Positions 20,637-30,137 of a stretch of DNA of 64,000 bases are shown here, piece by piece (the first letter of the stretch is position 1; every line of letters starts with the position of its first letter). The DNA lies in contig JAJFGO010000003.1 of the NCBI GenBank assembly GCA_021776095.1, positions 165,226-229,225 on the forward strand, written 5' to 3'. A program made the translations under genes and the position numbers. Below the pieces are notes generated by a model that saw only the letters and a list, made by a program, of their open reading frames with translations, was not told where the DNA came from and searched no databases. Source of the stretch: Kiloniellaceae bacterium. Its GTDB lineage: Bacteria; Pseudomonadota; Alphaproteobacteria; Kiloniellales; J153.

Positions 20637-23600
20637 CTATTCGGCAGGGTCGGGTAGCGGGCCCGGGCCGGGCCCGCCGGACAGTGTGCCGGAGGCCGCC
20701 TTGGCGGATCGCCGCGAAACGCGCCATGTGGCCAAATTGGCCCGCAACATGAGCGCGCTGGGGGTCACGACCAGCGTTAGCACAGTCGCGAAGCCGAGGC
20801 CGAAGACAATCGCGGTCGAGAGTTGGCGCCACCATTGTGTCGAAGGCGCGCCGATTAGAACTTCCCGTGTGATGAAGTCCACATTCATGCCCAGGACCAT
20901 GGGCATGAGCCCCAAGATCGTGGTGATGGTGGTCAAGAGCACTGGTCGCAAGCGCTGCGCGCCGGTCCGTAGGATGGCGTCCATGGGCGAGTCCGCTGAG
21001 TGCTTCAAGCGGTCGAAGGTGTCGATCAGCACGATGTTGTTGTTGACCACGATCCCGGCCAAGGCGATCACACCAATGCCCGACATGACGATACCGAAGG
21101 GTTGATCGATGACCAGGAGGCCGATCATGACGCCGATAGTCGACATGATGACCGCAGAGAGAATTAAGAACGCGCTGTAGAAACTGTTGAACTGCGTGAC
21201 CAGGATGATGGCCATCAGGAAAATCGCCACACCGAAGGCCTTAACCAAGAACTGTTGAGCCTGCTGTTGTTCTTCGTCTTCGCCTTTAAAGTTGATCGCG
21301 ATGCGCGGGTCGATCCGCTGATCGGATAGCCAAGCCCGGACTTCGCGCACCTTGTCGTCGGCCAGAAGGCCGGGTGCCACGTCTGCCTTTACGGTCATGG
21401 TGCGGCGGCCGTCGACCCGGCGCAGTAAGCTGACTTTGGGTTTCGCGGTGCGGGTGATGAAGTTGGAAATTGGCACCATGCCCATGTCCGTCTGCACTCG
21501 GATCCGATCCAACTGTTCGATGTTCCGGTTGACGGTAGGCAGGCGCGCGACGATATCGACTTCCTCGTTGGAACCGTCCGGGCGGTAATCGCCGAGCTTC
21601 ATGCCGTTGGTGATCATGCGCACGTAACTGCCGATCAGGGTCACGTCGGCGCCGAATTTTGCGGCTTGTGCCCGGTCGACCTGAACCTCCCACTCGATAC
21701 CCGGCACGGGGCGGCCGTCCTCGATATCCACGAAGCCACCGATCGCCTCCAGGGCGCCAGCCACACGTAGCGCGACCGGCTCGACAAGGTCGGGATAGTC
21801 AGAGCCGATCTCGACCTGCACCGGTTTGCCGACCGGCGGGCCCGACTCCTGCTTGCGCGGCTCGACGATTACACCGGCCAGCGCCGCAGTGCGCGCGCGA
21901 ATCTCAGCCAAAATCTCGTCGGCCGAGCGGCGCGCGTGCCAATCGGTAAACTCGAGCTGGATGGTCCCGATCAGGTCCTCGGGCTCATCCCGTTCGATTC
22001 CCGAGGAGGCCACGCTGGCGGCATAGATGGAGTGCAACTCTCCGTGTTCGCGTTGCAAATTGAGGATCTCGTTCTCGACTTGGCGCAACAGGGCGTCGCG
22101 CTCGTAAATCGAAAGGTTGCCGCGTGCGTGAACCTGCAGAGCGGCATTGTCGGGTTCGACCTCCGGGAAAAATTCAACCCCGCGGCCGTAGTTGGCATAG
22201 GTAAACTGCGCCACGATCAAAACGACGAAGGCACCGAGCAGAACCTTGGCCGGATGGTGCAGCGCCGCGCGCAAGACCCGCAGATAGCGGCCGGTGAAGC
22301 CGCCAATCTGATTGATGTCGCCGCTATCCCCCGCGGCCAGCGCTTTCATGGTCGCTGGATCGACCCCGCCGCCCGGTCGCCCGAAAACCGAACCCATGGT
22401 CGGGACAAAGACCAGCGCCATGATCAACGAGGCTGACAGGGTGGCAACCAACGTGATGGGCAGGTACTTCATGAACTCGCCGACTACGCCTGGCCAAAAC
22501 AGGAGCGGCATGAACGCGGCCAGAGTGGTCACGGTCGAGGCCGTGATCGGCCAGGCCATGCGCTTGCCGGCCATGGCATAGGCGGTGCGCCGGGGCTCGC
22601 CTTCCATCATCTTCCGGTCAGCGTATTCGGTCACCACAATGGCGCCGTCGACCAGCATGCCGACCGCCAGGATCAAACTGAACAGGACCACAATGTTGAC
22701 CGTGAAGCCGAGCCCGGCCAGAACCAAAATGCCGGCCAGGAAAGAACCCGGAATCGCGATCCCGACCAAACAGGCGGAGCGCAGGCCCAGGGCGCCGACG
22801 ACCACCACCATGACCAGCAGGATCGCGCTCATCACGTTGTTCTGCAGGTCGGTCAACATGGAGCGAATGTCGGTCGATTTGTCCTGGCTGTAGGTTACCG
22901 TAACCTCGGCCGGCCAATGCTGCCGCGTGCTCTCGACGACGGCGCGCACGTTCTCGATCGTCTCGATGATGTTTTCGCCGGTGCGCTTAGAGACCTCCAA
23001 GGCGATGGCCGGTTTGCCATTGATCCGGGCAAAGCCTTCCGGATCCTTGAAGGTCGGGCGCAGGGTCGCGACCTCGCGGACGCGCACCACGGCATCGCCG
23101 TTGACCTTAAGCGGCATGTCCAGGATGTCCCCGATGGATTCGAACAAGCCCGGCAGGCGAATTGCGAAGCGGCCTTGCCCGGTGTCGACCGCGCCAGCGG
23201 CCACCACGCGGTTGGAGCGGCCCACTGCGGTGACGATATCGTCCGCGTCTAAGCCATAGCTTTCCAAGACCAGCGGATCGATCACCAGTTCCACCACCTC
23301 GTCGCGGTCGCCGGCGATTTGGGCACTCAGCACGCTCGGCAAGGCTTCGATCTCGTCCCCAAGATCACGGGAAAGACGCAACAGGCTGCGCTCCGGCACG
23401 TCGCCGGACAGGGTGACGACCAGGACCGGGAAGAGGCTTAGGTTGATCTCGTGCACCGTGGGCTCGTCGCTGTCGTCCGGCAACTCGGGCTCGGCGATAT
23501 CGACCTTCTCGCGCACGTCGGCGAGCGCCTGATCGGCGTTGAAGCCGGCCTCGAACTCGAGCACCACGTTCGCGCCGCCAAGAAAGGCGGTCGAGCGCAT

Positions 23601-23840
23601 TTCCTTGATTCCCTCGATACCGCGCAGCTCCTGCTCCATGGGTCTGATGAGCAGGCGCTCCGCGTCGCCAGGCGAAATCCCCTCGTGGGACATGTTCACG
23701 TAGAGCACCGGGATCTGAATGTCCGGGTCTGCCTCCTTGGGCACGGTGACGTAGGCATAGCTGCCTGCCACCAGGATTAGCAGAAGGCTGGCGATGACTG
23801 TTCTGGATCGCCCGATGGCGGCATCGATAATGGCGTTCAC
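20637..23840 (-). CDS. RND-family efflux permease
   Basis: The 1067-residue protein has the AcrB-type plan of 12 membrane helices with two large periplasmic loops. Diagnostic parts are 'SRTVIASLLLILVAGSYAYVTVPKEADPDI', the TM4 block 'FSLILAVGMLVDGAIVVTEY', 'RMAWPITASTVTTLAAFMPLLFW', and the TM10 block 'LAGIVVNNNIVLIDTFDR'. It should form the proton-driven inner-membrane trimer that exports drugs, solvents or similar. Compared with AcrB, the TM4 Asp-Asp pair is Asp-Gly and the TM10 Lys position reads Asn, as in other RND subclades. The start overlaps the end of the adaptor gene by four bases (ATGA). No outer-membrane channel gene is next to it. Confidence 0.95.
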   Translation of the reverse strand: MNAIIDAAIGRSRTVIASLLLILVAGSYAYVTVPKEADPDIQIPVLYVNMSHEGISPGDAERLLIRPMEQELRGIEGIKEMRSTAFLGGANVVLEFEAGFNADQALADVREKVDIAEPELPDDSDEPTVHEINLSLFPVLVVTLSGDVPERSLLRLSRDLGDEIEALPSVLSAQIAGDRDEVVELVIDPLVLESYGLDADDIVTAVGRSNRVVAAGAVDTGQGRFAIRLPGLFESIGDILDMPLKVNGDAVVRVREVATLRPTFKDPEGFARINGKPAIALEVSKRTGENIIETIENVRAVVESTRQHWPAEVTVTYSQDKSTDIRSMLTDLQNNVMSAILLVMVVVVGALGLRSACLVGIAIPGSFLAGILVLAGLGFTVNIVVLFSLILAVGMLVDGAIVVTEYADRKMMEGEPRRTAYAMAGKRMAWPITASTVTTLAAFMPLLFWPGVVGEFMKYLPITLVATLSASLIMALVFVPTMGSVFGRPGGGVDPATMKALAAGDSGDINQIGGFTGRYLRVLRAALHHPAKVLLGAFVVLIVAQFTYANYGRGVEFFPEVEPDNAALQVHARGNLSIYERDALLRQVENEILNLQREHGELHSIYAASVASSGIERDEPEDLIGTIQLEFTDWHARRSADEILAEIRARTAALAGVIVEPRKQESGPPVGKPVQVEIGSDYPDLVEPVALRVAGALEAIGGFVDIEDGRPVPGIEWEVQVDRAQAAKFGADVTLIGSYVRMITNGMKLGDYRPDGSNEEVDIVARLPTVNRNIEQLDRIRVQTDMGMVPISNFITRTAKPKVSLLRRVDGRRTMTVKADVAPGLLADDKVREVRAWLSDQRIDPRIAINFKGEDEEQQQAQQFLVKAFGVAIFLMAIILVTQFNSFYSAFLILSAVIMSTIGVMIGLLVIDQPFGIVMSGIGVIALAGIVVNNNIVLIDTFDRLKHSADSPMDAILRTGAQRLRPVLLTTITTILGLMPMVLGMNVDFITREVLIGAPSTQWWRQLSTAIVFGLGFATVLTLVVTPSALMLRANLATWRVSRRSAKAASGTLSGGPGPGPLPDPAE

Positions 23841-24976
23841 GAGGCATCGTCCCGGGGCACGCTGGCAGTATTTGCATCCCCGTCAACCCGGCCAAAGGGT
23901 TTCAGTGTCGCATCGTCGATCGGCCGCACCTTCTGCCCGTCGGAGATAAACTCCTGGCCAACGGTAATCAGGACCACGCGTTGCGGCAGGCCGGCGACCC
24001 AAACCCCGGTCGGTTCCTCGTCCATGACCTGGACCGGCATGAAGGTCACCGTGTTATCCGGGGTCAGGGTCTTGACCCCGACCTTGCCGGAATCATCCAG
24101 GGCCAATACCGCGGGCGAGAGGCGGTGCGCGACGATTTGCTGTAATGGCAGGCTGACCTCGGCGCTGAGGCCGTCCGACATACGCCCCTCGGGATTGGCC
24201 ACCTCGACCTCGACCCGGAAAGTTCGGGTCGCGTCGTCGGCTTCGGCGGAGACGTACGAGACAATTCCTTCCACCGTCTGCCCGGTAATCAGGCGGGCGG
24301 TCGCCAGCGCGCCCAAGGTCAGGCGGCCGGCGTCGCGCTCGTTGACGTGGACCACGATCAGCAGGGGATCGAGGTCGATCAGGCGGGCGATCGGATCGCC
24401 CATTTCCACGAAGTCGCCGATCTCCACATTGCGGTCGACAATCAGTCCGTCGAAGGGCGCCAGTATAGCCATGTGGTTCAGGCTCATTTGGGCCGTCTTC
24501 ACCGCCGCCACGGCCGCGTCCAGCGCGGCCCGGGCGCCCGCCACTTGGGTTTCGGCCCGATAGCCCTTTTTGTTCAGGCGCTTGGCGGCATCGTATTCTA
24601 TTCGACGTTGTTCGCGAAGGGACTTGGCCTCGGCCAGGCGCGCCGGTCGCTCATCGGCCGCGAGCCGAGCCAAGACCGAGCCCGCTGCAACTGATTCGCC
24701 CTTTTCGGCATTTAACTCCACGATGCGGCCATGGGTTTCCGACTTGATATTGACTTTCCGGTCGGCCTTGGTCTTGCCGTGCAGCGCGATCTTTGCCGTG
24801 CGCATCTGGGCATTGTGAACCCGTACCCGGACGCTGGGCATGACCTCACTCGCCGCCAAATCGGCCGGCGGCTTTTCGTTCGCCTTGGGCCGGTCGGCGC
24901 CGCCCAACTGGCCGGATCCGATCCAGGCAATAGCCCCGATGGCCAGCGTGGCCGCGATTACGAAAGAGCGCTTCAT
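23837..24976 (-). CDS. RND efflux periplasmic adaptor (membrane fusion protein)
   Basis: The 379-residue protein has an uncleaved or cleaved N-terminal hydrophobic segment (MKRSFVIAATLAIGAIAWIG) with no lipobox Cys. The split lipoyl halves are 'KINIKSETHGRIVELNAEKGESV'-like ('VNIKSETHGRIVELNAEKG') and 'NHMAILAPFDGLIVDRNVEIGDFV', separated by a coiled-coil hairpin rich in Ala, Arg and Lys (~residues 110-165). Beta-barrel and membrane-proximal domains follow. It links the permease encoded next to an outer-membrane channel. It lies between the padR gene and the permease on one strand, forming a three-gene regulated operon. Confidence 0.93.
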   Translation of the reverse strand: MKRSFVIAATLAIGAIAWIGSGQLGGADRPKANEKPPADLAASEVMPSVRVRVHNAQMRTAKIALHGKTKADRKVNIKSETHGRIVELNAEKGESVAAGSVLARLAADERPARLAEAKSLREQRRIEYDAAKRLNKKGYRAETQVAGARAALDAAVAAVKTAQMSLNHMAILAPFDGLIVDRNVEIGDFVEMGDPIARLIDLDPLLIVVHVNERDAGRLTLGALATARLITGQTVEGIVSYVSAEADDATRTFRVEVEVANPEGRMSDGLSAEVSLPLQQIVAHRLSPAVLALDDSGKVGVKTLTPDNTVTFMPVQVMDEEPTGVWVAGLPQRVVLITVGQEFISDGQKVRPIDDATLKPFGRVDGDANTASVPRDDAS

Positions 24977-25043
24977 GCTACCGACGTCTAATCCAATTGA
25001 GTTACAGGTTGTACGGGGCCCGGGACCGTTAGGTCCCCAGAGA

Positions 25044-25586
25044 TTATTCGGCGACCATACGGCCGCTGGCCGAGACTTCGTCGTGCAGGCGGTCGCGGTG
25101 CGCGCTTAGATAGTCGGCCGCAGCCTGGTAAACGGCGAGGCCGAGGCCATGCACGAAGACTTCACCCGCTCGCCCGTTCTCATAGCTGCAGGCCTCCATG
25201 CGCTGCAGGCATTCCCGGTACCAAGCGATCCGCCGGTCGATCAGGGCGGCCAGGCGGGACGCCGGCAGGAGATGGGCGAAGAATAGGATGAACAGGAAGT
25301 CTGAGCGCACCTTGTCCTCGCCGGGGGGTGCTATCAAGGCCTCGAAGAAGGCCGAGCGGCCCCGTTCCGTAATCGAGAACACCTTTTTGTCCGGGCGCTT
25401 CTCCTGGGCCATCTCGGTACCCTGAACCATTCCGGCCTCGCTCAGGGCGGCCAGGGCCGGGTAGATCGCGCCGAAACTGGCCACATGGATATGCCCAAAG
25501 GGTCCCTCTTCGAAGGCCTTCTTGATCTCGTATCCAGTGGCGTCGCCCCGACTCAAAACGCCGAGGCATAGGGTCTTGATGTCCAT
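25044..25586 (-). CDS. PadR-family transcriptional regulator
   Basis: The 180-residue protein begins 'MDIKTLCLGVLSRGDATGYEIKKAFEE', the PadR winged helix, and continues with 'VASFGAIYPALAALSEAGMV' and 'KKVFSITERGRSAFFEAL' (wing). Residues ~95-175 form the helical Vir_act_alpha_C-type dimerisation domain. PadR repressors are often released by the compounds their target pumps export. The gene is first in the RND operon, 67 bases before the adaptor start, and a 23-bp palindrome lies about 67 bases upstream of its ATG, so autorepression of the whole operon is likely. Confidence 0.92.
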   Translation of the reverse strand: MDIKTLCLGVLSRGDATGYEIKKAFEEGPFGHIHVASFGAIYPALAALSEAGMVQGTEMAQEKRPDKKVFSITERGRSAFFEALIAPPGEDKVRSDFLFILFFAHLLPASRLAALIDRRIAWYRECLQRMEACSYENGRAGEVFVHGLGLAVYQAAADYLSAHRDRLHDEVSASGRMVAE

Positions 25587-25652
25587 GGCAGGTCACGATC
25601 CAGCGAAATTTATCTCATGATTCAATATATCACAGTGGCATAAGATTACACG

Positions 25653-25675
25653 GCATATATCCGTTCGATATATGC
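25653..25675. promoter_or_regulatory. Palindromic operator candidate for the PadR regulator
   Basis: Perfect nine-base arms, GCATATATC at 25653-25661 and GATATATGC at 25667-25675, around a five-base centre. PadR operators are typically AT-rich palindromes with ATG/CAT ends, as here. An extra half-like 'aatatat' lies at about 25624. The position, upstream of the padR ATG, suits autorepression of the RND operon. Confidence 0.6.
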
Positions 25676-25831
25676 AAGGCAGCCCGCCATCGCGCGCATG
25701 GCTGGCCGGGCAATGGCCGTCCGGGTTCGAATTTCATCTAGGATTTAGTAGAAAAACGACTTAAAAACAAATAGTTGTACCATTTTCCTAACACCTGTAT
25801 TCTGTGCCCGCGATACGCTGTGGGAGGTTCC

Positions 25832-26227
25832 ATGAGTTCGATCAATAGTGTGGCTTTGTCCGGCCTCTTGGCGCAGAGCAAACGCCTCGAGGTTTCGGCT
25901 AGCAATGTGGCCAACTTGCGCAGCACCGGAGTTAAGCCCGGGGCTCAGCCCCAACCGGGCGAGTTCGTGCCGCATCAGGTAGCGCTGAAGTCACGCGCCG
26001 GTGGCGGCGTGGAGGCGGTCGCGGTGCCGGTGAACCCGCCCTCGGTGCCGGCCTTCGAGCCCGGCGCGCCGGACGCAGACGCCAATGGGCTCGTGGCCCG
26101 GCCGAACGTCCAGTTAGAACGCGAAGTGGTCAACCAACTCGACGCGCGGCGTAACTTTCAGGCCAATCTGAAAGTAATCGAGACCCAGGATCGCCTGCTC
26201 GGCGACCTGCTGGATATCATTTCCTAG
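25832..26227 (+). CDS. Flagellar basal-body rod-like protein (FlgC/FlgB type), orphan
   Basis: The 131-residue protein starts 'MSSINSVALSGLLAQSKRLEVSASNVANLRSTG', the classic rod/hook N-terminal motif with the ANNxAN-like 'SASNVAN', and ends with 'VQLEREVVNQLDARRNFQANLKVIETQDRLLGDLLDI', the matching C-terminal coiled helix. Length and layout fit the proximal rod protein FlgC. ATG 25832 follows a GGGAGG site; the ORF-track extension upstream is not family-like. No other flagellar gene is in the window, so it may be a divergent spare copy or a protein recruited elsewhere. Export would depend on the flagellar type III system. Confidence 0.75.
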   Translation: MSSINSVALSGLLAQSKRLEVSASNVANLRSTGVKPGAQPQPGEFVPHQVALKSRAGGGVEAVAVPVNPPSVPAFEPGAPDADANGLVARPNVQLEREVVNQLDARRNFQANLKVIETQDRLLGDLLDIIS

Positions 26228-26236
26228 AAAATCGCC

Positions 26237-26899
26237 TTAGCGCCGGAGGATGCCGTCAGCGAGGTCTTGGCGGTTCTCCCAACCGCTGCGCAGGAGCTCC
26301 GGGTCGAGGTGCTCTTCCTCGGGCCAGCCGATGCAGAGATAGGCAACGAGCGACCAATCCTCGGGAACATCCAGAGTTTTGCTTAGCGCCTCGGGATCGA
26401 GGATCGACACCCACCCCACCCCAATGCCGCGCGCCCGTGCCGCGAGCCACAGCGTGTGGACCGCGGTGACCACCGAATAGCGCAAGGTCTCTGGCATGGT
26501 CCGGCGGCCGAGGCCGTGGCCGACGTGCGTACCCTCTTCGCAAAAGACCGCAATCTGAACCGGCGCGTCCTCGAGGCCGGAAAGCTTCAGCCCGGCATAC
26601 AGCTTGGCCCGAGCGCCGCGCTGCTCGGCCAGGGCTTCGGCGTTGCAACGCGCGAAGTTTTCGCGCACCGCGGCCCGGCGGGCGGCATCCTCCACCAAAA
26701 CGAAACGCCAGGGCTGACTGTAACCGACAGAAGGGGCCAGGGCGGCAAGCGCGAGCAAATCCGCCACTGTGGCGTCGGGCAGGGGTGACCGCCGGAACCG
26801 CCGTACATCCCGGCGCCATAGAAACAGCGCGTGCAGCGTATCCTGAAACTTCTGGTCGAAGTCAGGCACCATCTCGCCATGTTGCGCCGGCAAGGTCAT
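26237..26899 (-). CDS. bluB: 5,6-dimethylbenzimidazole synthase
   Basis: The 220-residue nitroreductase-fold protein matches BluB, which cannibalises FMNH2 with oxygen to make the lower ligand of vitamin B12. Key blocks are 'LWRRDVRRFRRSPLPD', 'APSVGYSQPWRFVLV', 'KLSGLEDAPVQIAVFCEEGTHVGHGLGRRTMPETLRYSVV' (read in parts) and 'GIGVGWVSILDPEAL'. The long insert with 'GLGRRTMPE' separates BluB from ordinary nitroreductases. The start may be ATG 26899 or the Met ten residues later. No other cobalamin gene and no cobalamin riboswitch is adjacent. Confidence 0.92.
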   Translation of the reverse strand: MTLPAQHGEMVPDFDQKFQDTLHALFLWRRDVRRFRRSPLPDATVADLLALAALAPSVGYSQPWRFVLVEDAARRAAVRENFARCNAEALAEQRGARAKLYAGLKLSGLEDAPVQIAVFCEEGTHVGHGLGRRTMPETLRYSVVTAVHTLWLAARARGIGVGWVSILDPEALSKTLDVPEDWSLVAYLCIGWPEEEHLDPELLRSGWENRQDLADGILRR

Positions 26900-26975: not shown

Positions 26976-28442
26976 TCAGCCCACCTGGCGGCTTTTCGGC
27001 AGAAGGATAGTTGCGCGCAGGCCGCCGCCGGCCCGATTGCTCAGGGCGATGTCGCCGCCGTGGCCGCGGAAGATGGAACGCGCGATGGCCAGGCCCAGGC
27101 CCGTGCCGCCGGTTTCCCGGCTACGCGAAACCTCCAGGCGCAGAAATGGCTCGAAGACCCGCTCCAGATCGGCCTCTGGGATCCCGGGGCCGTCGTCGTC
27201 CACCGTGATCTCGTAAGATTGGCCGAGATCGGCCAGGGCGACCCGCGCCCGCGCGCCGTAGGCTAGCGCGTTCGCGATCACGTTGTTCAGCGCGCGCTTC
27301 AAGGCGACCGGTCGGCATTGGTACGGCGCCTTGCCGGATTCGGCGAGTGCCACGTCCTGGCCGCCGTCGGCCAAATCGTCGCACAGGCTGGCGATCAAGG
27401 CCTGCAACTCGACCGGCCGGGAGTCCTCGCGCGCGGCGTCTTCGCGCACGAACGCCAGTACCGCCTCGACCATTTCCTGCATCTCGGCCAAGGTTTCGAG
27501 AATCTTCTCGCGCACCTCGGGGTCCTCGACGAACTCGGCGCGCAGGCGCAGGCTGGTGATCGGCGTACGCAGATCATGACTAATCGCGGCCAGCATGCGG
27601 GTGCGGTCGCGCACGAAACGGTGCAGGCGCTCGACCATTTCGTTGAAGGCTTGAGTCGTTTGGCGCACGTCGTCCGGTCCCTCGTCGGGCAGGGGCGGCA
27701 CATCCTCGCCCCGGCCCAGGCGTTCCGCCGCGCCGGCTAGGGCCCGCATGGGCCGGGTGATACGCCGAACGGATAAGACGACGATCAGCGTTACCGCGAC
27801 CGCCATGAGGCCTAGCCAGGTCAGAGTGTGCCAGGCCCAAGCAGGTGCGGGTGGCGGCAGCAGGGTTGCGGCATTGAGCCAGCGGCCATCTTGCAGTTGC
27901 ACGGCGATGGTCAAGCTCAAGGGGAACCGGCGGCGATGATCGCGCCACTCCGGTTCGCCATGTCGTTCGCCGAATTCGTTCTCCTCATCGTCGTCGTGAC
28001 CGTCGTCGTCGCGATGCTCATGGTGCCACCACCGGGGCATTCCTTCCTGGCGTTTGACGGCGTAACGGAACGAGGGGTTGTCCACCTCTACCAGCACCTC
28101 CCGGGCACCAGTGCCGCGCAACCTGTCCGCCAAACGGGCCCGCAAGGGGTTGTTACGATGCGCCGTATCCTCCGGGTCGACCGCGCTCGCCCCGGCCAGC
28201 CAATAGCGCAGGCGCGGGCCGCTGGCGGTTTCAATGAGGCGACGGCTCAATTCCGGCGGGGTTTCGCCGAGTAGCCGGACCATGGAAACGGTGCGCGACA
28301 GAACCTGCGCCCGGTCGGCGGCGCGCACGGCGTGACGCCGCTCGTCGAGGAACAGATACAGACTGATCGCCTGAACCGCGACGAGAGCCAGCAGCAGCAG
28401 CGCGATGGTCTGCCCGGCCAGGCTGCGGGGCCAGGGGCGCAT
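26976..28442 (-). CDS. Sensor histidine kinase with His/Asp/Glu-rich periplasmic region
   Basis: The 488-residue kinase has TM1 at ~11-31, a periplasmic domain to ~202, TM2 at ~203-225, HAMP, a HisKA domain with His289 in 'AISHDLRTPITSLRL', and an ATPase domain with 'NNVIANALAYG', 'VDDDGPGIPE' and 'GGTGLGLAIARSI'. Within the periplasmic part, residues 138-171 are extremely rich in His, Asp and Glu ('HHEHRDDDGHDDDEENEFGE'), as expected for a metal-ion or cation sensor. The real start is ATG 28442, which overlaps the regulator's stop by one base; the longer ORF-track start is inside that gene. Overall plan is EnvZ-like. Confidence 0.93.
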   Translation of the reverse strand: MRPWPRSLAGQTIALLLLALVAVQAISLYLFLDERRHAVRAADRAQVLSRTVSMVRLLGETPPELSRRLIETASGPRLRYWLAGASAVDPEDTAHRNNPLRARLADRLRGTGAREVLVEVDNPSFRYAVKRQEGMPRWWHHEHRDDDGHDDDEENEFGERHGEPEWRDHRRRFPLSLTIAVQLQDGRWLNAATLLPPPAPAWAWHTLTWLGLMAVAVTLIVVLSVRRITRPMRALAGAAERLGRGEDVPPLPDEGPDDVRQTTQAFNEMVERLHRFVRDRTRMLAAISHDLRTPITSLRLRAEFVEDPEVREKILETLAEMQEMVEAVLAFVREDAAREDSRPVELQALIASLCDDLADGGQDVALAESGKAPYQCRPVALKRALNNVIANALAYGARARVALADLGQSYEITVDDDGPGIPEADLERVFEPFLRLEVSRSRETGGTGLGLAIARSIFRGHGGDIALSNRAGGGLRATILLPKSRQVG

Positions 28443-29170
28443 CACAAACGCTCTACCTGGGCCGCGAAGCTGTAGCCGCCACCCCAAACGGTTTGGATCA
28501 GGGTCGGGTTCTTTGGGTCGTCCTCGATCTTGCGGCGAAGCCGGCTGACCTGATTGTCGATGCTGCGGTCGAACATCTTGGCCGCGCGGCCCTGGGTCAG
28601 GTCCAGCAACTGGTCGCGCGACAGCACCATGCGGGGATGATCGAGAAACGTGGCAAGCAGGCGCGCTTCGGCCGTGCTCAACGGCACCGCAGTGCCGGCC
28701 CGGTCCAGCAATTCGCGCCGGTTGGGGTCGAAAGTCCAACGGTCGAATCGGAGGCGCTGCGGTCCGCCGGCAGTACGCTGGCGTGGCAGGCTCTGGGTGC
28801 GCCGCAGTACAGCCTTGATCCGGGCCAGCAGTTCGCGCGGATTGAAGGGTTTGGTCAGGTAATCGTCGGCGCCGATCTCCAGCCCGACCACGCGGTCGGT
28901 TTCCTCGGCCATGGCGGTCAGGAGAATCACCGGCACGTCAGTGGTCTCACGCAGATGGCGGCACAGGCTGAGGCCGTCTTCGCCGGGCATCATGATGTCG
29001 AGCACCACCAGGTCGATGGCACTGGCCTTCAACGCCTGCCGCATGGTTGCGCCGCCATCTGCGGCGGTCACCCGAAGGCCGTGCTTGGTCAAATACTTGG
29101 CCACCAAGTCGCGGATATCGCGATGGTCGTCGACCACCAGGACGTGGGGCGTTCGCTCCATGTCGCTCAT
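28442..29170 (-). CDS. OmpR-family response regulator
   Basis: The 242-residue protein has a receiver with 'VLVVDDHRDIRD' and phosphoacceptor Asp58 in 'LVVLDIMMPGEDGLSL', then Lys in 'YLTKPFNPRELLARI', and a C-terminal winged helix ('RELLDRAGTAVPLSTAEARLLATFL', 'GRAAKMFDRSIDNQVSRLRRKIEDD'). ATG 29170 gives MSDMERTPHVLVVDD; a second ATG three codons on is also possible. The sensor kinase gene overlaps its end. A tandem direct repeat lies 63 bases upstream, in the gap to the divergent EF-hand gene, and is the natural candidate for its own binding site. Confidence 0.95.
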   Translation of the reverse strand: MSDMERTPHVLVVDDHRDIRDLVAKYLTKHGLRVTAADGGATMRQALKASAIDLVVLDIMMPGEDGLSLCRHLRETTDVPVILLTAMAEETDRVVGLEIGADDYLTKPFNPRELLARIKAVLRRTQSLPRQRTAGGPQRLRFDRWTFDPNRRELLDRAGTAVPLSTAEARLLATFLDHPRMVLSRDQLLDLTQGRAAKMFDRSIDNQVSRLRRKIEDDPKNPTLIQTVWGGGYSFAAQVERL

Positions 29171-29232
29171 CCAAGTTCCGTTTCTTCCTAACTGGGAATA
29201 TGTGCCCCTGGCGGGCCTTGGGGGACAAAACT

Positions 29233-29249
29233 TTGTATCGAATTGTATC
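29233..29249. promoter_or_regulatory. Tandem direct repeat TTGTATC, candidate OmpR-type binding site
   Basis: TTGTATC occurs at 29233-29239 and again at 29243-29249, exactly ten bases apart, the head-to-tail spacing that OmpR/PhoB-family dimers use. It lies between the response-regulator gene and the divergent EF-hand gene, in a less GC-rich patch, so one site could control both. Not tested beyond the match. Confidence 0.5.
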
Positions 29250-29362
29250 ACCTGGGGCCCTTGCGACGATCCGCGACCAAATGGCCCGGTGCCTGGCATA
29301 CAAATGCGACAACCGGGCCCCAGTTTATCAGGCATCACGAACTACATTGAAACGAGGACAAG

Positions 29363-29905
29363 ATGAGAACCAGAACCAAGGTCACGATCGTCGCCAGCGC
29401 CGCTGTTCTCCTGGCCAGTCTCGGTGTCGCCGGCATTAGCCACGCCAGCGGCTCCGGCTGGAATTACCACGGTAAGGGATATCACGACGGCGAACGCCAT
29501 GGCCGGCATGGCATGAGCGGCAAAGAAGGCAGGCGCGGCCATCACGGCGGCCGACATCTGATGAGTATGTTCAACGACTTCGACGCGGATGGCGACGGCA
29601 AGCTGACCCAGGCCGAGATCGACGACGCGCGCCGGGGGCAGCTGTCCCGCTTCGATACCGACGGCAACGGCATGCTGAGTCTGCAGGAATACGAGGCCCT
29701 GTGGCTCGATGCCATGCGCGAGCGCATGGTCGACCGCTTTCAGAACCTGGACGCCGACGGCGATGCCACCATCACTACGGCCGAATTCGCCGAGCCCTTT
29801 GCCCGTGCCGTCCGTTTCATGGACCGAAACGACGATGGCGCCATCAGCCGTGACGATATGGGCCGCCACAAGCGTATGCGAGATCGTAACGACGACGACG
29901 ACTAA
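29363..29905 (+). CDS. Secreted EF-hand calcium-binding protein with His-rich N-terminus
   Basis: The 180-residue precursor has a signal peptide (cleavage near residue 28, 'ISHASG'), a His/Gly-rich stretch at ~35-65 ('YHGKGYHDGERHGRHG'), and four EF-hand loops: 'DADGDGKLTQAE' (74-85), 'DTDGNGMLSLQE' (98-109), 'DADGDATITTAE' (130-141) and 'DRNDDGAISRDD' (154-165, with Asp instead of Glu at the last position). It should bind Ca2+ outside the cytoplasm, and the His stretch could bind transition metals. It is divergent from the two-component system, whose sensor is also rich in metal-binding residues. A strong hairpin terminator follows. Confidence 0.92.
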   Translation: MRTRTKVTIVASAAVLLASLGVAGISHASGSGWNYHGKGYHDGERHGRHGMSGKEGRRGHHGGRHLMSMFNDFDADGDGKLTQAEIDDARRGQLSRFDTDGNGMLSLQEYEALWLDAMRERMVDRFQNLDADGDATITTAEFAEPFARAVRFMDRNDDGAISRDDMGRHKRMRDRNDDDD

Positions 29906-29950
29906 GTCCGGCGCTGGACCTGAAATCTGGGGCCAGATCCGACCCAGGAG

Positions 29951-29984
29951 GCCGCCTTTCCCGCTGCAGATCGGGAAAGGCGGC
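29951..29984 (+). terminator. Intrinsic terminator after the EF-hand gene
   Basis: A perfect 13-bp stem, GCCGCCTTTCCCG at 29951-29963 and CGGGAAAGGCGGC at 29972-29984, with an eight-base loop. The downstream tail is 'ttcagttt', moderately T-rich. It lies 46 bases after the EF-hand stop codon. Confidence 0.8.
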
Positions 29985-30137
29985 TTCAGTTTAATCTATA
30001 TATTATAAATAATTATAGGTATTTTCTTAAGTGTTTTCGAGCAAAGATTAACGGCAGATTAGAGTTTGCCCGCTATGCTCCAGATGCCTTGGAGGCGGCT
30101 TGGGCCGCCCCGTCCCTAGGAGCATGGAAACCCCGCC

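Follow-up and report, generated by a model that had tools for sequence, protein, structure and literature searches.

What does a two-component system detect when its sensor holds a dense His/Asp/Glu tract in the periplasm and its operon faces a gene for an exported EF-hand protein, and does that protein act as the output of the system only or also as a part of its regulation? The role of bacterial EF-hand proteins in signalling is poorly understood. In the window (the whole stretch of 64,000 nucleotides that was analysed), a pair of genes encoding a response regulator (RR) and a histidine kinase (HK) on the minus strand faces a divergent EF-hand gene on the plus strand. The features of this trio are listed below, with the RR and HK starts as given here adopted instead of the long open reading frame starts.

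26976..28442, minus strand: sensor histidine kinase (HK) of the EnvZ/CpxA-like class, 488 amino acids, with the domain order TM1, periplasmic domain, TM2, HAMP, HisKA, HATPase_c
27924..28025, minus strand: His/Asp/Glu-rich tract of 34 residues (HK residues 140-173) in the periplasmic domain
28442..29170, minus strand: OmpR-type response regulator (RR), 242 amino acids
29171..29362, no strand: divergent intergenic region, 192 bp
29233..29249, plus strand: operator-like direct repeat TTGTATC-N3-TTGTATC with a 10-base period
29363..29905, plus strand: four-EF-hand protein, 180 amino acids, apparently exported (Sec-signal-like N-terminus)
29465..29560, plus strand: His-rich segment of the EF-hand protein, with Met/His/Gly repeats in relatives
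29582..29617, plus strand: EF loop 1, DADGDGKLTQAE
29654..29689, plus strand: EF loop 2, DTDGNGMLSLQE
29750..29785, plus strand: EF loop 3, DADGDATITTAE, with Ala at position 6
29822..29857, plus strand: EF loop 4, DRNDDGAISRDD, with Asp at position 12
29948..29987, plus strand: terminator-like hairpin of 16 pairs, 3' of the EF-hand gene, from a consensus scan only

The RR gene and the HK start share one base. In a Pfam domain search the HK (HAMP, HisKA and HATPase_c) and the RR (receiver and Trans_reg_C) exceeded the cut-offs for all of these domains, which places both proteins in the OmpR/EnvZ class of two-component systems (TCS). The length of the intergenic region is similar among relatives, and the hairpin after the EF-hand gene is consistent with a single-gene unit. 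Beside the HK, at 20637-26899 of the window, lie an RND efflux operon, a PadR-type regulator, a solitary FlgB/C-like gene and a nitroreductase, an arrangement that is syntenic in the genus. The nitroreductase (26237-26899, after the HK) was considered as a member of the operon and rejected, as it adjoins the HK in the genus only.

The preliminary description had assigned an exported four-EF-hand protein to the divergent gene. This assignment is borne out by a match to PF00036 (55.6 bits against a cut-off of 25.4) and by four 12-residue loops of the form D-x-[DN]-x-[DN] at residues 74-85, 98-109, 130-141 and 154-165, which identify a canonical EF-hand protein; its export is apparent, from an N-terminus that by inspection resembles a signal peptide. 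Loops 3 and 4 are non-ideal Ca2+ loops because of the Ala at position 6 and the Asp at position 12, respectively, and the canonical loops 1 and 2 make Ca2+ plausible as the cation. The His-rich segment that had also been noted is present but variable, with Met/His/Gly repeats in the nearest relatives. An AlphaFold2 model of the protein, built from four sequences, reached a pLDDT of 37 and was unusable. At one other locus of the kinase family (L245), the EF partner carries six EF-hand loops, arranged as two blocks with GGDGERGE-type repeats between them, and the sensor loop paired with it is rich in Glu, Gly and Arg.

The close relatives of the window genome are Kiloniellaceae metagenome bins, and all three congeneric ones carry the trio; in a fourth, more distant relative the contig ends ahead of the partner's place. 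The kinase family was searched through relatives, order, class and phylum, and the loci were taken with their flanks, giving 122 that could be analysed. An EF-hand gene lies upstream of the RR in 39 of these 122 loci, divergent in all 39, and in most of them about 150-240 bases separate it from the RR. On a tree of the catalytic part of the HK, 13 changes in the EF partner are needed, compared with a mean of 33 after shuffling, which indicates a link between partner and kinase that is stable, with exchanges. Conservation of the trio, on which a functional link would depend, is thus seen both in the genus and across families, always in the divergent orientation.

The TTGTATC direct repeat that had been noticed between the divergent genes proved to be a conserved operator-like element. 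In the window it reads TTGTATC-GAA-TTGTATC (29233-29249), and the genome of 5 Mb has no other exact match. A repeat with up to three mismatches is not unusual in the window alone, and the significance of the element derives from its conservation among relatives, i.e. from a phylogenetic footprint. A matrix seeded with the window site and then refined on the EF loci gave the consensus AAAANTGTANCNAANTGTNNCAAN, in which two half-sites recur at a 10-base period. About 35 of 40 EF loci yielded the operator TGTAWC-N4-TGTNNC with scores above those of shuffles (34 EF loci score above 10, the 99th percentile of the shuffles being 2.7); the window's own score is circular, and those of the other loci are not. 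The strict pattern TGTAWCNAANTGTNNCA has exactly one match per genome in eight of ten genomes, always in this intergenic region, and the remaining two also match at their trio when one mismatch is allowed. At one mismatch, the ten genomes hold 25 sites, i.e. 10 at the trio, one in the intergenic region of a paralogous TCS of the window genome and 14 others; these 14 compare with 17 for a reversed-pattern control, so that this search for a wider regulon gave no evidence of further targets. A conserved tandem OmpR-type site therefore lies between the divergent genes, as in an autoregulated divergent TCS-effector circuit. Since the operator is nearly unique per genome, the main genes directly governed through this putative operator seem to be the EF-hand gene and the RR-HK pair itself, in agreement with the earlier proposal that the EF-hand gene is the main output. 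Judged from its conservation, the trio with its candidate DNA switch, recurring across many alphaproteobacteria, is a real circuit variant.

Some further sites were observed. A one-mismatch repeat adjoining a pilin-like gene (L002) was judged to be a chance match. At 29260-29330, past the operator and ahead of the EF-hand start, lie opposite-strand half-sites resembling GTCGC/TGTNNC that are partly conserved in the genus and might be additional regulator sites. One family member (L093, G027:C23) has the operator, but its divergent slot is without an EF-hand gene and its sensor without a dense acidic tract.

The periplasmic domain of the HK spans about 170 residues, and the stretch of 34 residues dominated by His, Asp and Glu that first drew attention to it is compositionally extreme. 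The tract, HHEHRDDDGHDDDEENEFGERHGEPEWRDHRRRF, holds 20 D/E/H in its 34 residues, a number that none of 20,000 loop shuffles attained (maximum 18, mean 11.6). In an AlphaFold2 model of HK residues 1-230 (five sequences, mean pLDDT 66), the tract is predicted to lie in a disordered segment between two strands (residues 123-173, pLDDT below 50), and the sensor-domain model found no fold match in the PDB (best E 0.44). Dense tracts (at least 10 D/E/H in 20 residues) occur in 19 of the 39 EF-type sensors against 5 of 83 others (Fisher 1.3e-7, uncorrected for phylogeny). With phylogenetically independent contrasts (PIC), the association between EF presence and D/E/H density is not significant (r=0.16, p=0.07), and that between any small secreted partner and the D/E/H density of the loop reaches r=0.28 (p=0.002). 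The sensing of Ca2+ or of a transition metal, as the preliminary description had proposed, is thus partly supported: dense tracts occur in 19 of 39 EF-type sensors, and their association with EF partners weakens once phylogeny is corrected for (p=0.07). The tract is kept in kind, not at the residue level, in about half of the EF-type sensors; as the other half lack it, a dense tract is not required for an EF partner. It may perhaps be just a hypervariable disordered loop.

The divergent slot is not reserved for EF-hand proteins. With partner classes defined by our own profiles, built from seeds within the loci, other members of the kinase family were found to carry PepSY/Met-rich proteins (13 loci) or Spy/CpxP-like proteins (16 loci) in the same place, or to lack a recognisable partner there. 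The window genome itself has a paralogous RR-HK pair with a divergent Met-rich PepSY-like protein (contig C109:103000-119957, L288) and a copy of the operator that differs by one mismatch. This paralogue is flanked by a copper-type P-type ATPase, a YHS protein and Met-rich (cytochrome-like) proteins, i.e. it lies in a copper island, the names of the ATPase and the YHS protein being our own reading of the sequences.

Copper also appears around EF-type members of the family. The trios of Hoeflea sp. IMCC20628 and Martelella mediterranea are plasmid-borne and lie amid copper-resistance genes, among them those for multicopper oxidase, copper ATPase and DUF302 proteins; the EF protein is Met-rich there and the sensor loop reads PEMAEMHxxMM. 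One large genome family has many loci in which a Met-rich sensor loop is paired with a Met-rich EF partner, often with copper genes near; these loci are counted as one clade because their sequences are closely related. The Met content of the partner correlates with that of the loop (r=0.25, p=0.02, PIC). As judged from the neighbouring genes, the module is copper-associated in this sister branch, and its trios, with their Met-rich ligands, suggest copper and not Ca2+. Beside the window trio there are no copper genes, and the ligands are acidic residues and His, not Met. The HK reaches 141.5 bits against a cut-off of 292.55 for the heavy-metal sensor kinase model (CusS/CopS/SilS/CzcS, TIGR01386), and the RR 132.8 bits against 279.2 for TIGR01387, so that both fall short of these models. 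Met-rich EF-hand proteins were also observed in copper-resistance islands that have no adjacent TCS, on pDSHI03 of Dinoroseobacter shibae (L281) and on a plasmid of Roseovarius indicus (L283); many records related to these islands are typed as conjugative plasmids.

We propose, with moderate confidence, that the trio is a local autoregulated circuit responsive to periplasmic cations, with the EF-hand protein as its output and probably as an accessory regulator too. The HK would watch the periplasm through a domain whose flexible His/Asp/Glu tract could bind divalent cations. The phosphorylated RR would then bind the tandem TGTAWC half-sites with their 10-base period between the divergent genes and thereby control its own operon as well as the EF-hand gene, the latter being its chief direct target and perhaps the sole strong one. 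The exported EF-hand protein would bind periplasmic cations, most likely serving as a buffer and, by contact with the sensor, as an accessory that tunes the HK in the manner of DbfQ or CpxP. Its role as accessory regulator is suggested by analogy with CpxP and with DbfQ, which binds the sensory domain of DbfS. More tentatively, the kinases may form one family whose exported metal-ligand partners can replace one another (EF-hand, Met-rich PepSY, Spy-like and Met-rich EF-hand proteins), and in which the disordered loop of the sensor mirrors the ligand chemistry of the partner, i.e. a D/E/H loop with an EF-hand partner and a Met/His loop with a Met-rich partner. If the loop does mirror the partner, then sensor and partner would read or compete for the same ion.

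The proposed feedback on the kinase is the point at which another reading departs. It is possible, though we consider it rather doubtful, that the tract of the HK binds the cation directly and that the EF-hand protein is an induced buffer or sink which does not act on the kinase at all. CopM would be the precedent, a protein that binds copper and is encoded together with CopRS (PMC4335983). The nearly unique operator, which makes the EF-hand gene the main target, agrees with such a role, as do the EF-hand proteins that lie without an adjacent TCS in the copper islands of the Dinoroseobacter shibae and Roseovarius plasmids. A pure sink, however, need not remain locked to its sensor, and the proteins that take the same slot elsewhere in the kinase family, PepSY and Spy-like, belong to families with known accessory regulators of kinases; both points count against this reading.

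The nature of the signal can be read differently as well. An envelope-stress system, in which cation binding by the tract and the EF-hands is the means and the signal, like that of DbfQRS, CpxAR or PhoQ, is damage to the outer membrane or surface, low divalent cations or cationic peptides, would suit the HK and RR, which score best against EnvZ/CpxA/RstB and OmpR models and not against heavy-metal sensor models, and would suit the syntenic RND efflux operon nearby in the genus; DbfRS reacts when the membrane is perturbed but not when iron is added (PMC12714742). The embedding of the sister-clade trio in copper-resistance islands, with Met-rich ligands, speaks against it, and we regard it as improbable. 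That the genes adjoin by chance and were kept together by local synteny, for which the equally syntenic nitroreductase, FlgB/C-like, PadR and RND genes of the genus could be cited, merits hardly any belief: the trio also occurs in other families, whose fetched flanks lack the nitroreductase, so that synteny alone does not explain it, and the divergent orientation is invariable and the operator conserved.

In the cation-responsive circuit that we favour, an EF-hand protein is tied to one sensor pair by its conserved position and by a near-unique operator, and because of this tie a direct link between an EF-hand protein and a TCS can be tested in relatives that are cultivable (Hoeflea, Martelella). 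Partner exchange, together with the pattern of Met and acidic loops, could aid the prediction of the metal for many sensor kinases that have not been assigned one. If the mirroring of loop and partner were true, it would amount to a modular scheme of periplasmic metal sensing with the EF-hand as a bacterial signalling partner.

Among known systems, lanmodulin resembles the window protein as a small periplasmic EF-hand protein of alphaproteobacteria with a weak model match. Identity with lanmodulin was rejected (NF053806, 26.9 bits against 135; no Pro at position 2 in the EF loops counted), and, unlike for lanmodulin, no lanthanide genes were seen for the window system. CarSR/CarO and EfhP of Pseudomonas resemble the window system in that CarSR is a Ca2+-linked TCS and EfhP an EF-hand protein. 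To our knowledge CarO is not an EF-hand protein, and we know of no divergent trio of this kind in Pseudomonas. BqsRS is another name for CarSR. EfhP, a Ca2+-binding EF-hand protein (PMC9132961), has two EF-hands against four in the window protein. The parallel with CarSR/CarO that had been drawn is loose, but BqsS of P. aeruginosa, described as the DbfS orthologue, has PepSY proteins as neighbours (PMC12714742).

CopM-CopRS of Synechocystis and the copper TCS of the CusRS/CopRS type encode a metal-binding periplasmic protein with the TCS, comparable to the putatively cation-binding EF-hand protein, and the sister-clade trios lie in copper islands; the window system differs in an HK far under the cut-off of the heavy-metal kinase model and in its lack of adjacent copper genes. 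Systems of the CpxP-CpxA and ZraP-ZraS type combine an EnvZ/CpxA-like kinase with a periplasmic helper. The 16 loci with Spy/CpxP-like proteins in the same slot liken the window's kinase family to them, whereas the window trio has an EF-hand instead of the LTXXQ fold, a different loop and a system-specific operator. In DbfQ-DbfRS of Vibrio cholerae and BqsRS/PA2658-PA2659 of Pseudomonas aeruginosa, as in the window, a small exported protein is encoded beside an OmpR-type pair. DbfQ is a PepSY protein whose gene adjoins those of DbfRS; its binding partner is the sensory domain of DbfS (PMC12714742), and it modulates the kinase. PepSY-like partners also occur in the window's kinase family, as in the paralogue of the same genome. 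The window partner, in contrast, is a four-EF-hand protein that matches EF-hand and not PepSY in Pfam, and its gene is divergent rather than co-transcribed. Individually, the HK and RR are ordinary EnvZ/OmpR-class proteins; the trio of EF-hand gene and TCS was not described in the open-licence papers searched, and the novelty is the combination with an EF-hand partner, an apparently undescribed version of the known circuits made of a sensor plus a periplasmic helper protein.
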